Virus record (IMG/VR): IMGVR_UViG_3300036444_000044
Span: 1 to 39,041 of that record
DNA: 39,041 nucleotides
Direction: 5' to 3' (one strand)
Origin: a virus
In this document: one piece after another, positions 29,471 through 34,111 of the stretch
Position numbering within the stretch: the stretch's first letter is position 1
Layout of the letters: every line of letters begins with the position of its first letter
Notes under the pieces: model-generated
The model's database searches: none
What the model was told of the DNA's origin: nothing
Seen by the model: only the letters and a program-made list of their open reading frames with translations
Program-made: the position numbers and the translations under genes

Positions 29471-31309
29471 CTACCGATCAACAACTTCATTTGATACCTC
29501 TTGGTCTTGAATGGAAAACTCGACGAAGCGCAGCGGGCACTTCCTCGGCCCGGTGCGGTATTGCTGGGTGGGTTTGTCGAACCACAGGCGCAGGGTGTAG
29601 TCCTGCACTCCATCCTCCCGCTGCTTCTTCAGGATCAGCTTGGCGTCGATTCCGTCCTGCTCCTCCTGCCACTTGGCAAGGGCTTCCGGATCGTTGGGGT
29701 TAGCGGGCGCTTCGTCCTTCTGGGCGCGCCAGATCGAGAACACGTTGTCGGCGCCGTTGACGATGCCGCCAGCACCAGCAACTTCCATCTTTCCGGGCGC
29801 TTCGGTTTCGTCGCGCAGCTTGCGCGGGTGCGCCACCAGGTGGATGTGGACGTTGTGGGTCTTCTTGAACGAAACCAGCTTCTGCACGGCCTCGTTCTGC
29901 TTGGTGATCGCGCCGGGACCATCCTGAGGAACGTCGATCATCATCAGGCTGTCGATGACGAAATGACGGACGCCATAGCGCCGCGCGGCATAGGCGAACA
30001 CCTCGAGCAGACGATCCAGCTTGGCCACGCCTACCAGGTCGAACAACCACAACCGCTCGCGGAACCAGTCACCAATCGCGCGGATGTACTCACGTGTCGG
30101 CCGGTCCTGGCCGCTGGCCTGCTTGTGGAGGCGCTTCATGTGGCGGGCCGCGCCCATCTCGCCGGAGAAGATCACGACGCGCTCGCCCTGCAGCATCAGC
30201 CCGAGCAGGATCTGATCGAGCATCAGGCTCTTCCCGTGCCCGTTGATGCCGGTCCAGCAGGTGTATTCGGCCCGCCGGAAGCGAAACCAGTCCAGTTCCT
30301 TGTCGATGTACAGCGCCGGGTCGAGTGGCGTTCCAGGCGGCGGATAGAACAGCGCTTCGACGGCCGCGGTGTAGTCGTTGGCGCTGCGCAGCTCATCAGG
30401 ATCCAGCGCCCGGGCATCCTCCATCGCCTGCTGGAAATCCACAGCCTCGGCGCCATCCTGCAGCCATTGATTCGCATCCTTCGCGCCGAGACGGACACGG
30501 CGGCAGCGCTCAATGCCCAACCGGTTGATGACCTCGGCCGCGCCCTTGTCGCCGGCCTCGTCGTTGTCGAAGCAAATGAGGATGTCGTCGAAACGCTCGA
30601 GCTTTTCCCAATCGTGTTCGATCCACTGGTGATTGCCGGCGCCCTGGTTGACGGACAGCGCAGGTACGTGCATCTGGTGCAGCGTCATGGCGTCAATTTC
30701 GCCTTCGGTGATCGTGACCGTCCGAGCCCTCGGGTCGATCAGATGCCATCCGAAGAGGCAAGGCGCCGCGCCCGGCTCTTGGCGCATGTCCCTCTTGTCA
30801 TCGGGATTCCGGTACTTGATATTGATGAGTTCGCCGTGCTCGTCGATGAACGGGAACACCGCGTAGGTCTTGCCGCGCTGCACTTGCTCCGCGACCTTGA
30901 AGGCCCGGATCGTTTCCTCGGTCAGTCCGCGGCCGATTAGCCACTCGGCGGCACGCGCTTTGGCGGCCGGGGCGCGTGGGCTCTCCGGGCGGCGGAAGGT
31001 CCTCTCCGGCGGACGCGGGAAGTCGTCACGGATGCCGAGGTGGCGCTTGATGTCCTTCATCGCCTCCGACATCGACTGACCACGGCAGGCCATCCAGAGG
31101 TCGATCAGATCGCCCTTCTCACCGCTCGCGAAGTCAGACCACACCCCCGCCTTGTGGCCCTTGATGCACACCGACAAGCTGTCGCCCGGCTCTCCGCTCG
31201 TGTTGCCGGCCTTCCACTCGCTGCCCCGCGGCTTGCCCTGCGGCAACAGGATGCGCGCGATCTCGGCGGCTTGGCTGGCCAGCAGCTGCTTGATCTCGGC
31301 GGCGTTCAA
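29471..31309 (-). CDS. Primase-helicase of the T7 gp4/Twinkle type
   Basis: A 612-aa bifunctional replication protein. An N-terminal segment (residues about 30-75, WKAGNTSGEPGDSLSVCIKG...) occupies the place of the primase zinc ribbon but lacks the Cys pairs. The TOPRIM domain follows, with TITEGEIDAMTLHQ (199-211) and FDNDEAGDKGA (247-257). The RecA-like ring helicase has Walker A GINGHGKS (354-361), Walker B FVIDSL (450-455) and a sensor-like HLVAHPRK. The start is TTG 31309: AGGAGG lies seven bases upstream and it overlaps the previous stop (TTGA). It is coupled to the O-like initiator upstream and would unwind and prime at the origin within that gene. Confidence 0.88.
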   Translation of the reverse strand: MNAAEIKQLLASQAAEIARILLPQGKPRGSEWKAGNTSGEPGDSLSVCIKGHKAGVWSDFASGEKGDLIDLWMACRGQSMSEAMKDIKRHLGIRDDFPRPPERTFRRPESPRAPAAKARAAEWLIGRGLTEETIRAFKVAEQVQRGKTYAVFPFIDEHGELINIKYRNPDDKRDMRQEPGAAPCLFGWHLIDPRARTVTITEGEIDAMTLHQMHVPALSVNQGAGNHQWIEHDWEKLERFDDILICFDNDEAGDKGAAEVINRLGIERCRRVRLGAKDANQWLQDGAEAVDFQQAMEDARALDPDELRSANDYTAAVEALFYPPPGTPLDPALYIDKELDWFRFRRAEYTCWTGINGHGKSLMLDQILLGLMLQGERVVIFSGEMGAARHMKRLHKQASGQDRPTREYIRAIGDWFRERLWLFDLVGVAKLDRLLEVFAYAARRYGVRHFVIDSLMMIDVPQDGPGAITKQNEAVQKLVSFKKTHNVHIHLVAHPRKLRDETEAPGKMEVAGAGGIVNGADNVFSIWRAQKDEAPANPNDPEALAKWQEEQDGIDAKLILKKQREDGVQDYTLRLWFDKPTQQYRTGPRKCPLRFVEFSIQDQEVSNEVVDR

Positions 31310-32208
31310 GCGGTTGCCTCCTGCGGCACGCGCTTGCCGTTCCGGAACTCGTGAAAGTTGCCGACGTGGCAGCGTTCGTTCTGAGCCTCCGCGATGTGCT
31401 CGAAGCCAGCAACCCTCCACCAAGGGATGCCGTCAACCAGCGGCACCACGACCGGCGAGGCAATCCGCTTCGAGCCGCCGCGGTCCTGCTCCTTCGAAAG
31501 CCATCCGCTGACGAATCGACGAATCCCCTTTGCGGTCTTCCGCTTTTGCGGATTGTCCTTGCACCAGATCCGCGCTCGCAGCAACTCTGCGATCACATCG
31601 ACCGCAGGAAATGCCTGTTGCCATTCCTGCACGTCGGTTGCCGTCACGACGAAGTTCTTGCCATCGATCAACGGGAGCAAGACAACCGTGGCCGGAGCTT
31701 CGGCGTCGATGCCGGTTTCCGGCTCGGCGCAAAAGTTGACGGTTCCTTGATGGTTCAATGACGGTTCTTGACGGTTAGTGTGCGGCATTTGCACTGGTTG
31801 AGTGCGGCATTTGCACGGGTGGGGTGCGGCATCTGCACTGGTTGATGCGGCATCTGCACCGGTGCATCTGGTGCACCCGTGCGGCATTTGCACCGGTAGG
31901 GGTGCGGCATCTGCACTTGTCTTGCGTTGTTCCGTGCGCTTGGAGCACACGTTTGATGGCGAGAACGCGCTTGGAGTGACCTGGTAGGTTGTATGCCGAC
32001 CGTTCGATCGATCCGCAGTCAGGGCGCCTGCGGCTTCGAGCCACTTGATCGCGTCGATCACCGCACGACGTGAAAGGCACGTGCGCTCGCCGATAGTGTC
32101 GATTGAAGGCCAGCAGTGGCCTTGGTCGTTGGCGTTGTCGGCTAGCGAGATCAGCACAGCCTTCGGCGAAGGCGGCATCTTCAAAGGCCAGCACTGGCTC
32201 ATGATCAT
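31306..32208 (-). CDS. Replication initiator, lambda-O-like, winged helix
   Basis: A 300-aa protein with an N-terminal helix-turn-helix/winged-helix domain (SPKAVLISLADNANDQGHCWPSIDTIGERTCLSRRAVIDAIKWLEAAGALTAD, residues about 13-65), a low-complexity linker encoded by six iterons (SADAAPLPVQMPHG...QPVQMPH), and a C-terminal domain (LPLIDGKNFVVTATDVQEWQQAFPAVDVIAELLRARIWCKDNPQKRKTAKGIRRFVSGWLSKEQ) common in phage initiators. It should bind the iterons and load the adjacent helicase. ATGs at 32208 and 32202 both follow a weak GAG; eight bases separate 32208 from the stop of the 37-aa gene. An upstream frame extension is rejected because it overlaps cII. Confidence 0.82.
   Translation of the reverse strand: MIMSQCWPLKMPPSPKAVLISLADNANDQGHCWPSIDTIGERTCLSRRAVIDAIKWLEAAGALTADRSNGRHTTYQVTPSAFSPSNVCSKRTEQRKTSADAAPLPVQMPHGCTRCTGADAASTSADAAPHPCKCRTQPVQMPHTNRQEPSLNHQGTVNFCAEPETGIDAEAPATVVLLPLIDGKNFVVTATDVQEWQQAFPAVDVIAELLRARIWCKDNPQKRKTAKGIRRFVSGWLSKEQDRGGSKRIASPVVVPLVDGIPWWRVAGFEHIAEAQNERCHVGNFHEFRNGKRVPQEATA
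31780..31916. repeat. Six-iteron replication origin inside the initiator gene
   Basis: Six copies of a 15-bp element, consensus GTGCGGCAT(T/C)TGCAC, start at 31780, 31802, 31824, 31845, 31879 and 31902. Five are exact apart from the T/C position; the fourth begins with A. Each has GTGC/GCAC dyad ends. Start-to-start distances are 22, 22, 21, 34 and 23 bases, close to two helical turns, and the 34-base gap contains a degenerate dyad GGTGCA-tctgg-TGCACC. The array lies in the linker-coding part of the O-like gene, as ori does in lambda O. Confidence 0.85.
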
Positions 32209-32213
32209 CGTGC

Positions 32214-32327
32214 TCAACGCCAGGCTCCCATTTCGTGATCGGTAGCCCAGCGGGCATTGCTGAAGTTGCCGCGGTGCACACGCAGCCAGTAGAGGAAGTG
32301 CACAGACCACAAGATCGCTCGTCGCAT
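32214..32327 (-). CDS. 37-aa protein between cII and the initiator
   Basis: A 37-aa frame, rich in Trp, Arg and His (RRAILWSVHFLYWLRVHRGNF in its first part), with its ATG overlapping the cII stop (TG-ATG) and its stop eight bases before the initiator. The precise fit between two coupled genes is the main support. I recall similar short proteins in related phage early regions but cannot name a function. The first 15 residues could form an amphipathic or membrane-touching helix. Confidence 0.55.
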   Translation of the reverse strand: MRRAILWSVHFLYWLRVHRGNFSNARWATDHEMGAWR

Positions 32328-32629
32328 CAGTCCCACTCCAGCGTGCGCACCGACTGCACGGCGCTAAGGTGCTGCTTCGCCATGAGAAGCAGTGCGTCCA
32401 CATAGTCCGGGGGGAAGCACCGCATGTCCTGGCCGACGACTCGCAAGCCGGCGTGAGCTAGTACCAGCGCCAACTTGTCGAGGTGATCGCTGAGGAGGCG
32501 CGAAATGGTCGATTCGCTGACGCCCATCGCCGCTGCGATGGCTGTTTGCGACGCGTCGCGCTGCGTCGCCTTCAGAACGCTCGATACGATCTTGCGAGCT
32601 CGCTCATCTGGTCCGTCAACCGTCGTCAT
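32327..32629 (-). CDS. cII: CII-like transcriptional activator
   Basis: A 100-aa protein, the size of lambda CII (97 aa), with a helix-turn-helix at residues about 24-45 (QTAIAAAMGVSESTISRLLSDHLDKLALVLAHAGLRVV). CII activates the establishment promoter PRE and other lysogeny promoters by binding TTGC-N6-TTGC. Here such a box lies immediately before the gene. The start is ATG 32629 with GGGGAC before it; the long upstream extension overlaps another gene. It overlaps its upstream neighbour (ATGA) and the 37-aa gene downstream. Assignment by fold, size, position between cro and O, and the adjacent binding site. Confidence 0.82.
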   Translation of the reverse strand: MTTVDGPDERARKIVSSVLKATQRDASQTAIAAAMGVSESTISRLLSDHLDKLALVLAHAGLRVVGQDMRCFPPDYVDALLLMAKQHLSAVQSVRTLEWD

Positions 32630-33000
32630 GTTGCGTCCCCTTGCAGCGCGGTGCGCCAAGTTGCACGGCCGTGTAGCGCCTTGCAGGCGGTGCAAGTAGT
32701 TGCCGCACGCCTTGCTGGCACTTCCGGACCAGCGCGCAGAGACTTGGTCGCCATGAACGCCCACAAAGTGCCTCGAACGCCCGGCAACCACCCGGACCTC
32801 ATCCACAGCAGCTCACGCAGCTCCATCAGCACGAATGCGAGTGCCGTCCCCGGCAAGTCCGCACGAACGACCCTCCGCACAACCCGGCTCGACATCCGCT
32901 GGGCAGATGGGGACTTGGAAATGCGCTTCGCCGCCCACGTCGTAGACGTGACGCCCAACCACGGCAACATGCTGCGTAGGAATGCGCGATGAAGGGTCAC
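32626..33000 (-). CDS. Hypothetical protein between cro and cII
   Basis: A 124-aa basic protein starting at GTG 33000, with GAGG six bases upstream, one base after the cro stop. It overlaps the cII start (ATGA). Arg- and Trp-rich helices (VRRVVRADLPGTALAFVLMELRELLWMRSGWLPG) are followed by a small C-x-x-C element (TTCTACKALHGRATW). No known family. An antisense frame of similar length exists, but it lacks a ribosome binding site and the overlaps; the fit between cro and cII favours this frame. Confidence 0.5.
   Translation of the reverse strand: MTLHRAFLRSMLPWLGVTSTTWAAKRISKSPSAQRMSSRVVRRVVRADLPGTALAFVLMELRELLWMRSGWLPGVRGTLWAFMATKSLRAGPEVPARRAATTCTACKALHGRATWRTALQGDAT
32631..32663 (+). promoter_or_regulatory. 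PRE-like promoter with CII box
   Basis: TTGCGTCCCCTTGC (32631-32644) fits TTGC-N6-TTGC, the CII recognition sequence, and begins like lambda PRE (TTGCGT). Thirteen bases on, as in lambda, lies AAGTTG (32658-32663) at the -10 place. It faces right, antisense to cro, toward cI, and lies right at the cII start as PRE does in lambda. Confidence 0.7.
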
Positions 33001-33001
33001 G

Positions 33002-33253
33002 TCACGCCTCGGCTTCGGCAGCCGACTTTGTGCCGGCGCGTACCTGTCGCTGCATTTGTGCGCGCTCAGTCAGAGGTAAATCGTCGAGCGTCAGCCCTTC
33101 AAGCAAAGCCACCAAGCAGTCTGCCAAACCGATCTCGATTTCCTTCGCGGCATAGGCCACTTGGTTCAGCATCCCCCTGGTGGTGCCAGCTTGCTGCGCA
33201 AGCGACTCACGCTCATTGACGGGCAGGCTGAGGTAAAGAGTTTTGAAGGTCAT
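33002..33253 (-). CDS. cro: Cro-like (YdaS-type) repressor
   Basis: An 83-aa protein starting FKTLYLSLPVNERESLAQQAGTTRGMLNQVAYAAKEIEIGLADCLVALLEG, a helix-turn-helix of the Cro/YdaS type in which the turn is AGTTRGML. It is the first gene leftward from PR, divergent from cI, and should repress PRM and PR during lytic growth. The start at ATG 33253 lies about 22 bases downstream of the -10; it lacks a strong ribosome binding site. A longer frame would extend through both operators and is rejected. The C-terminal 30 residues are charged and probably flexible. Confidence 0.8.
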   Translation of the reverse strand: MTFKTLYLSLPVNERESLAQQAGTTRGMLNQVAYAAKEIEIGLADCLVALLEGLTLDDLPLTERAQMQRQVRAGTKSAAEAEA

Positions 33254-33264
33254 GGAAGCACAGT

Positions 33265-33278
33265 TTACCCATGGGTAA
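33265..33278. promoter_or_regulatory. Operator 1 (OR, PR side)
   Basis: TTACCCATGGGTAA is a perfect 14-bp palindrome covering the -10 region of PR. It shares the TTACC/GGTAA arms with three other sites near cI and is a predicted binding site for CI and Cro. Confidence 0.8.
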
Positions 33279-33303
33279 TATTTTTGCAAGCCCCAAAGGT
33301 CAA
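33275..33303 (-). promoter_or_regulatory. Leftward early promoter PR
   Basis: On the minus strand TTGACC (33298-33303), a 17-base spacer and TATTAC (33275-33280) form a strong sigma70 promoter for cro and the early genes. Operator 1 covers its -10 and operator 2 touches its -35, so a bound repressor would block it. Confidence 0.8.
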
Positions 33304-33318
33304 TTACCTGCTGGTAAT
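33303..33318. promoter_or_regulatory. Operator 2 (OR, cI side) with PRM-like element
   Basis: ATTACC-tgct-GGTAAT is a perfect interrupted palindrome. Its right arm contains TAATCT (33315-33320), a likely -10 of the cI promoter PRM, nine bases before the cI start codon. The -35 is poor (CCCAAA), as expected for a promoter that needs activation. The cI message would be almost leaderless, as in lambda. Confidence 0.7.
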
Positions 33319-33328
33319 CTACAAAACC

Positions 33329-33988
33329 ATGAACATCCAACAGATCCGACGCGCCCGACTGCGCCAACTACTGGCAGAAGTCAAGCCGGCCGAGTTGGCC
33401 CGGCTAAGCGGCGTGAGCCCCAGCTACCTAAGTCGCCTCAAGCATGAGATCGACTCACCCTCGGCAAAAAATATGGGCGAGGTGATGGCCCGGAAGCTCG
33501 AGAAGGCCGCTCGGAAGCCGTCTGGCTGGATGGATACGTTGACCGAATCCTTCGACCAGGCGAAGTCTGCTGACACGATGACGAAGTTGCGGCGAGTGCC
33601 TGTGGCCGGCACCGCGAAGGTGGGTGACGAGGGCTACTACGAAGAGATCAGGTCAAGAGCGGACGTAGGGGACGGCTACGTTGAGGTCATGGTTGACGAT
33701 CCGAATGCGTATGGAATCCGTGTCCGAGGACAGAGCATGTTCCCCGCGATCCGAGACGGCTGGTATGTCCTCGTCAAGCCAAATGCGACACCCCGCGAAG
33801 GCGAGTACGTTCTGCTGAAGTTTGCAGACGGGCGAAAGATGGTGAAGGAGTTCCTCTTTCGCCGGGACACGATCATCGAGGTGATGTCGGTCAACGGCGG
33901 GGGGCGGCACACCTTCGATCTGTCGGATCTGGACGAGTTGCACCCTGTAGGCGCGCTAGTCTCGCCAAGCCAGTGGAGCCCTGGCTAG
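33329..33988 (+). CDS. cI: CI-type repressor with S24 peptidase domain
   Basis: A 219-aa prophage repressor. The N-terminal helix-turn-helix is RLRQLLAEVKPAELARLSGVSPSYLSRLKHEI (about 10-42). The C-terminal LexA/CI-type S24 domain has the catalytic Ser136 in RGQSMFP and Lys173 in RKMVKEF. The cleavage region reads VPVAGTAKVGDEG, so the residue pair aligned with the usual Ala-Gly scissile bond is Val98-Gly99. ATG 33329 lies directly after a PRM-like -10 with no ribosome binding site, like lambda cI. It maintains lysogeny by binding the operators at 33265, 33303, 34039 and 34065, and is divergent from cro. Confidence 0.92.
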   Translation: MNIQQIRRARLRQLLAEVKPAELARLSGVSPSYLSRLKHEIDSPSAKNMGEVMARKLEKAARKPSGWMDTLTESFDQAKSADTMTKLRRVPVAGTAKVGDEGYYEEIRSRADVGDGYVEVMVDDPNAYGIRVRGQSMFPAIRDGWYVLVKPNATPREGEYVLLKFADGRKMVKEFLFRRDTIIEVMSVNGGGRHTFDLSDLDELHPVGALVSPSQWSPG

Positions 33989-34038: not shown

Positions 34039-34081
34039 TTTTCCCGTGGGTGTTGACCAGCAAGTTTACCTTGAGGTAAAT
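34039..34081 (+). promoter_or_regulatory. Rightward early promoter PL with operators 3 and 4
   Basis: TTGACC (34053-34058), 17 bases and GTAAAT (34076-34081) form a rightward promoter. TTTACC-ttga-GGTAAA (34065-34080) is a perfect palindrome over its -10. TTTTCCCGTGGGTGTT (34039-34054), a degenerate copy of operator 1, covers the upstream edge of its -35. The geometry copies that of PR and its two operators, so CI should repress both, as in lambda OL/OR. Confidence 0.75.
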
Positions 34082-34111
34082 TCTCTTCGTCCCTAGCAAG
34101 ACGGAGCAAGC

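Follow-up and report, generated by a model that had tools for sequence, protein, structure and literature searches.

Background

The CII-activated promoter PRE (pE) of phage lambda consists of a TTGC-N6-TTGC box, a 13-bp gap, and a weak -10 with A2 and T6 (TTGCGTTTGTTTGC, 13 bases, AAGTAT); it lies at the start of cII, with its one box partly inside that gene, and its transcript runs antisense to cro and into cI. To our knowledge, no open reading frame (ORF) is known at the start of this transcript. The CII tetramer reads the direct repeat using two of its four subunits (PMC9986795). In Pseudomonas phage D3 (NC_002484), the record annotates a CII site TTGCGGGCCCTTGC and pE, with the -10 TTTAAT at N13; the single box lies in cII codons, and cro directly abuts cII, so D3 has neither a small ORF nor an array of boxes. 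In lambda and D3 alike, the PRE-type CII site compared here is a single box at the promoter. YdaT of CP-933P is likewise a CII-equivalent tetramer at a PRE-like promoter, and its footprint spreads to 94–97 nt at higher concentration; it differs in being a POU-domain protein that reads an inverted repeat and has weak secondary sites (PMC9986795).

The window (the whole 39,041-nt stretch of viral DNA analysed here) encodes a CII that is 39% identical to that of D3 over the alignment. Whereas lambda PRE has one box, five boxes appear to lie here between cII and the predicted promoter, and the predicted transcript, unlike that of lambda, begins with a conserved ORF of 79 aa. We consider, on sequence grounds, that positions 32631–32744 form a CII-activated promoter of the lambda-PRE kind that was moved out of cII and extended to five tandem CII boxes, and we put the probability of this reading at roughly two in three. 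The original prediction had inferred that the lysis/lysogeny decision circuit, including a cro antisense RNA, is conserved far outside the classical lambdoid phages. This is right in kind but is not new, because D3 (annotated) and most of the CII genes examined have a box-N13-(-10) arrangement in cII; PRE outside the enterobacterial lambdoids is already known. What appears to be new is a relocated PRE-type promoter, putatively leaderless in its transcript, with five boxes arrayed in tandem upstream of it, together with an undescribed small gene.

Table 1. Features of the locus and its surroundings. Positions are those of the window; "relaxed box" gives the number of aligned prophage sequences with xTxC-N6-xTxC.
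Feature	Position	Strand	Remarks
O-like gene	31306–32403	-	gene-order member
Iteron-like repeats, six, GTGCGGCAT(T/C)TGCAC	31780–31924	+	within O-like gene, 21–34 bp steps
cII	32327–32629	-	100 aa, lambda-CII-type HTH activator
Half-decayed box TTGCGAGCTCGCTC	32592–32605	+	within cII codons E-R-A-R-K
Box 1 TTGCGTCCCCTTGC	32631–32644	+	half-sites 1–2; TTGC-N6-TTGC
Box 2 GTGCGCCAAGTTGC	32651–32664	+	half-sites 3–4; relaxed box 17/18
Box 3 GTGTAGCGCCTTGC	32671–32684	+	half-sites 5–6; relaxed box 13/18
Box 4 GTGCAAGTAGTTGC	32690–32703	+	half-sites 7–8; relaxed box 17/18
Box 5 TTGCTGGCACTTCC	32712–32725	+	half-sites 9–10; TTGC-N6-TTCC; predicted -35-region CII box
Predicted -10 GAGACT	32739–32744	+	exactly 13 bp past box 5
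79-aa ORF	32753–32992	+	undescribed family; ATG 8 bp past predicted -10
cro-position gene	33002–33253	-	83 aa; assigned by position; antisense to predicted transcript
Operator-like palindrome TTTACCCATGGGTAAT	33264–33279
CI-type repressor	33329–33988	+	HTH and S24 peptidase; PF00717 E 6e-12, PHROG 4 E 1e-23
Operator-like palindrome ATTACCTGCTGGTAAT	33303–33318
Operator-like palindrome TTTACCTTGAGGTAAA	34065–34080

The cII gene and its neighbourhood

The gene that had been described as a CII-sized HTH gene was confirmed as a CII homologue. Its product matches PHROG 725 (E 1.2e-19) and Pfam PF05269 (Phage_CII; 23.0 bits against a cut-off of 21.3), and a profile built from its relatives reaches lambda CII in the PDB (1XWR/1ZS4) at E 2e-7. 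The predicted structure, of middling confidence (pLDDT 74), has the lambda CII fold of an HTH and a C-terminal helix; in Foldseek the 11 best-scoring chains all come from lambda CII (E from 3e-3 to 0.13), among them those of the CII-DNA complex (1ZS4) and of the activation complex (8IGR). Relatives of the gene were found in two Variovorax genomes, a proteobacterial MAG, and IMG/VR contigs.

The lambda gene order cI / cro / cII / O is present, followed by primase/helicase, with an extra opposite-strand ORF between the cro-position gene and cII. The cro-position gene had no family match in Pfam and PHROG searches. The CI-type repressor gene is the predicted end target of the transcript considered below. 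The three operator-like palindromes flank cI on both sides, resembling OR and OL, and a consensus promoter at 34053–34082 overlaps the third of them. The iteron-like repeats within the O-like gene mark a probable replication origin.

A probable promoter at the array end away from cII

The original prediction had placed the promoter at box 1, and several of its observations hold. The TTGC-N6-TTGC repeat is present on the plus strand with a gap of 1 bp to cII (ATG at 32629–32627, minus strand), covering the cII Shine-Dalgarno AAGGGG (32637–32642, minus strand); it shares the TTGCGT start with lambda PRE, satisfies the CII recognition rule, and points at cI, so that a transcript from it would be antisense to cro. 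By itself, however, TTGC-N6-TTGC occurs at chance level: the 39-kb window has four copies, shuffled sequence is expected to give 2.33, and at least four arose in 21 of 100 shuffles. The remaining copies, at 619, 6071, and 34096, are at this chance level, including the one at 34096–34109 (minus strand), which adjoins the third operator-like palindrome. The expectation that relatives with cII also keep the repeats is borne out only in part at box 1: its exact form is found in 6 of 18 sequences, the relaxed form xTxC-N6-xTxC in 16.

The hexamer AAGTTG (32658–32663, plus strand), proposed as the -10 of box 1, does lie 13 bases beyond the box (32645–32657 intervening), as in lambda, but it is not conserved. 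It matches TATAAT at one of six positions, is unique to the window, and sits inside box 2, overlapping half-site 4; A2 and T6 at its position occur together in none of the 18 sequences. Further, a conserved element of the same geometry, box 5-N13-(G/C)AGACT-N8-ATG, was found 81 bp downstream. Although box 1 combines an exact repeat, the lambda spacing and TTGCGT, and a cII-proximal position, it is very unlikely that box 1 with AAGTTG is the direct counterpart of lambda PRE; box 1 is real, but probably not the promoter.

The promoter is probably formed by box 5 and GAGACT, at the array end away from cII. The complete element is kept in 18/18 sequences, in an alignment that was anchored on the box 5/-10 element itself and in which one member (L077) was found through that element, the other relatives having first been found by their CII protein. 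TTGC-N6-TTxC at box 5 and AGACT at the predicted -10 are each present in all 18, the exact TTGC-N6-TTGC at box 5 in four; in the window, too, this promoter-proximal box departs from the exact lambda rule. The element accompanies every examined CII gene at least 77% identical to that of the window. When the composite TTGC-N6-TTGC-N13-GAGACT was compared with the 39-kb window, the best match was box 5 to -10, with one mismatch. GAGACT agrees with TATAAT at three of six positions, as does the lambda -10. The stretch 32712–32744 contains two TTGC-like half-sites spaced at 10 bp and, 13 bp beyond them, a weak -10; it is directed toward cI and antisense to cro, and lies 83–115 bp upstream of the cII start. 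A scan for consensus promoters and terminators returned nothing at the site.

An mRNA from this promoter should be leaderless, because only 8 bp separate the predicted -10 from the ATG, which would place the start within about 2 nt of it at ordinary -10 to +1 distances.

The composite promoter pattern was also sought in viral contigs, where it occurred in 53 stretches, 17 of them with a CII gene (one new: L077); the rest were taken as chance. In the corresponding scan for four-fold TTGC-N6 runs, L149 was the only CII-like case among the matches listed, and a weak one (E 0.009); such runs therefore occur without CII, since the other listed matches have no CII hit. A plasmid search returned only D3-like Pseudomonas records.

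Anatomy and conservation of the array

The array spans 95 bp and comprises ten xT(G/C)C half-sites, starting at 32631, 32641, 32651, 32661, 32671, 32681, 32690, 32700, 32712, and 32722; half-sites 3, 5, and 7 start with G. In the window, four TGC pairs have a lag of 10, where 0.27 would be expected (p=0.001), and in the relatives the stretch between the cII start and position 32725 shows TGC words repeated at a pitch of 10 bp. We parse the array as five TTGC-N6-TTGC-like boxes, box 1 being at the cII-proximal end, with centres 20, 20, 19, and 22 bp apart. This parsing appears best because the within-box pitch is always 10 and both odd gaps (9 and 12) fall solely between boxes, an arrangement with a chance of 1 in 6. 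Five tandem sites for a tetramer would fit the reading of a direct repeat by two of the four CII subunits (PMC9986795).

Conservation follows the same pitch. Over the 123 bp from cII to the next plus-strand ATG (17 aligned rows, no indels), conservation had a period of 9.9–10.0 with a power of 16.4, which none of 2000 permutations matched at any period from 2.2 to 25. Among 18 distinct prophage sequences, pairwise identity was 90% at the half-site T and C, 76% at the third base, and 55% in the spacers, in which T makes up just 10% of the bases. The most distant array member, L077, has several degraded half-sites.

These data bear on two further explanations. The array could be a by-product of coding, belonging to a minus-strand ORF (32626–33000) or to an N-terminal extension of cII; in most relatives the minus-strand frame has no stop over 330 nt, and its amino-acid identity approaches that of the small ORF opposite (0.59 versus 0.62) through shared wobble positions. 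We give this explanation almost no credence, as the period-3 power of array conservation is 0.01, the spacers drift freely, and stops interrupt the frame in three relatives (L009, L010, and L018). Alternatively, the repeats might act in RNA, as GCAA-like words of the cII leader read by an RNA-binding protein or a small RNA. The array is indeed transcribed as the cII leader and takes in the ribosome-binding site, but the 10-bp phasing across about nine helical turns is a signature of the double helix, no Rfam match was obtained, and box 5 and the -10 require no such leader; an action in RNA is thus highly improbable.

CII as the likeliest array binder

Exchange of cI, cro, and O among the relatives has left cII, the array, and the small ORF linked; a cI matching that of the window was found only in L003 (53%) and L022 (63%) among the stretches compared. 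The third base that varies in the array (G/C/T) also varies in the single boxes inside other cII genes (TTTC, TTCC, TTGC). CII is the best candidate for the array binder, because the array follows cII through the cI/cro/O swaps, is absent from L022 and L023, where CII is divergent, and shows the same third-base degeneracy.

Another reader, namely the 79-aa product, the O-like initiator, Cro/CI, or a host factor, would leave only box 5 as a CII site. The 79-aa gene adjoins the array, and the O iterons of this phage also bear GTGC and TTGC/CTGC words. Like lambda-type origin iterons, the array is made of tandem short repeats adjoining replication genes; unlike them, it has another unit and pitch, and this phage has its separate iterons in the O-like gene. 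Those iterons run from GTGC to TTGC/CTGC 9 bp apart, with a conserved GCAC end and 21–34 bp steps, whereas the half-sites of the array follow a 10-bp pitch and conserve no GCAC. Replacement of O, cro, and cI leaves the array in place, and L022/L023 carry the 79-aa gene without the array. A reader other than CII is therefore unlikely.

Promoter geometry in other CII genes

The array-less CII genes provide a comparison for the promoter. Their box lies inside cII, mostly over the E-R-A-R-K codons, and in most of those examined the half-sites also deviate from TTGC. We compared 11 array-less genes, among them those of lambda and D3: the hexamer at offset 13 has T6 without exception and combines it with A2 in nine, while at the other offsets from 3 to 29 A2 with T6 occurs in at most two. 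The Pseudomonas phages UFJF_PfDIW6, Shamal, and PP9W have CTTAAT or TTTAAT at N13. No clear box was seen inside the cII of JBD44 and L019, and none at the expected place in L031. As a separate observation, the cII start codon lies in CATG in six relatives (L020, L027, L029, L030, L033, and L035), which places an opposite-strand ATG right at the predicted PRE start, where a leaderless ORF could begin.

The window has no lambda-type single box in the first cII codons. At the spot where the rest of the CII family has PRE, it retains the half-decayed box, and the hexamer at N13 from it is ACCGTC, which is no -10. In L022/L023, which have a divergent CII (31% identity; PHROG 725, E 1e-17) and the same small ORF without the array, TTTC-N6-TTTC, N13, GAGACT or GAAACT, a short gap, and an ATG follow one another inside cII. 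Since PRE sits in cII elsewhere and the presumed ancestral spot in the window is half decayed, the promoter has most probably left cII in the clade of the window.

The 79-aa ORF

The start of the small ORF is kept in 18/18 sequences, and its stop falls at 75–85 codons in all translated relatives except L009 and L010. Differences by codon position amount to 30/24/47%. The evidence that the ORF is coding is good but not complete, as the opposite frame shares its wobble positions. No family match was found in Pfam, PHROGs, NCBIfam, or phage records. The protein is predicted to form a three-stranded sheet, and structure comparison gave no match at a Z of 5 or more.

Distant relatives of the 79-aa ORF lie divergent to other regulators in Comamonadaceae genomes (L045, L046, and L048–L050); those beside it in L045 and L050 match PF06892 (Phage regulatory protein CII, CP76), a family different from that of lambda CII. 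In L010, cro and cI give way to an integrase-like ORF that continues the reading frame of the small ORF; the junction may reflect recombination or an attachment site.

Proposed mechanism and implications

The anatomy of the sequence, its periodicity and conservation, the assignment of CII to its family, and the box-13-(-10) geometry across that family are observed; the scheme that we infer from them concerns CII binding and activation, a leaderless start, cooperativity, and a roadblock. A CII tetramer on box 5 would recruit RNA polymerase to the weak GAGACT, and transcription would start at the ATG (32753) or no more than about 2 nt from it. The leaderless mRNA would encode the 79-aa protein first, then cross cro in antisense and reach cI in the sense direction. 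Boxes 1–4, on one face of the DNA, could carry additional CII tetramers, which would raise the steepness or the occupancy of CII activation; lying in the cII leader over the ribosome-binding site, they might also keep operon transcription from reaching cII and the replication genes. In the accessible literature, which covers few subscription journals, we found no account of cooperativity between CII tetramers bound to adjacent boxes, and nothing relevant on arrays of CII boxes.

We suggest only tentatively, and regard it as rather doubtful, that several CII tetramers on the array combine steep-threshold activation of the leaderless transcript with a roadblock of the cII/replication operon, that the number of boxes is an evolvable setting of the lysis–lysogeny threshold, and that the 79-aa protein is a first-expressed lysogeny-establishment factor.

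The locus suggests a known decision circuit rebuilt with many binding sites in place of one. Five helically phased boxes beside one promoter would provide a natural test of how site number relates to the lysogeny threshold, and an unannotated small gene family is placed as the putative first product of the establishment transcript. The locus also appears to be an example of a promoter that has left its usual place in the CII family, inside the coding region. For that family, the box-13-(-10) arrangement seen inside cII in lambda, D3, and most of the other genes examined offers an easy guide to where CII promoters should lie in Pseudomonas and Burkholderiales prophages that have yet to be studied.
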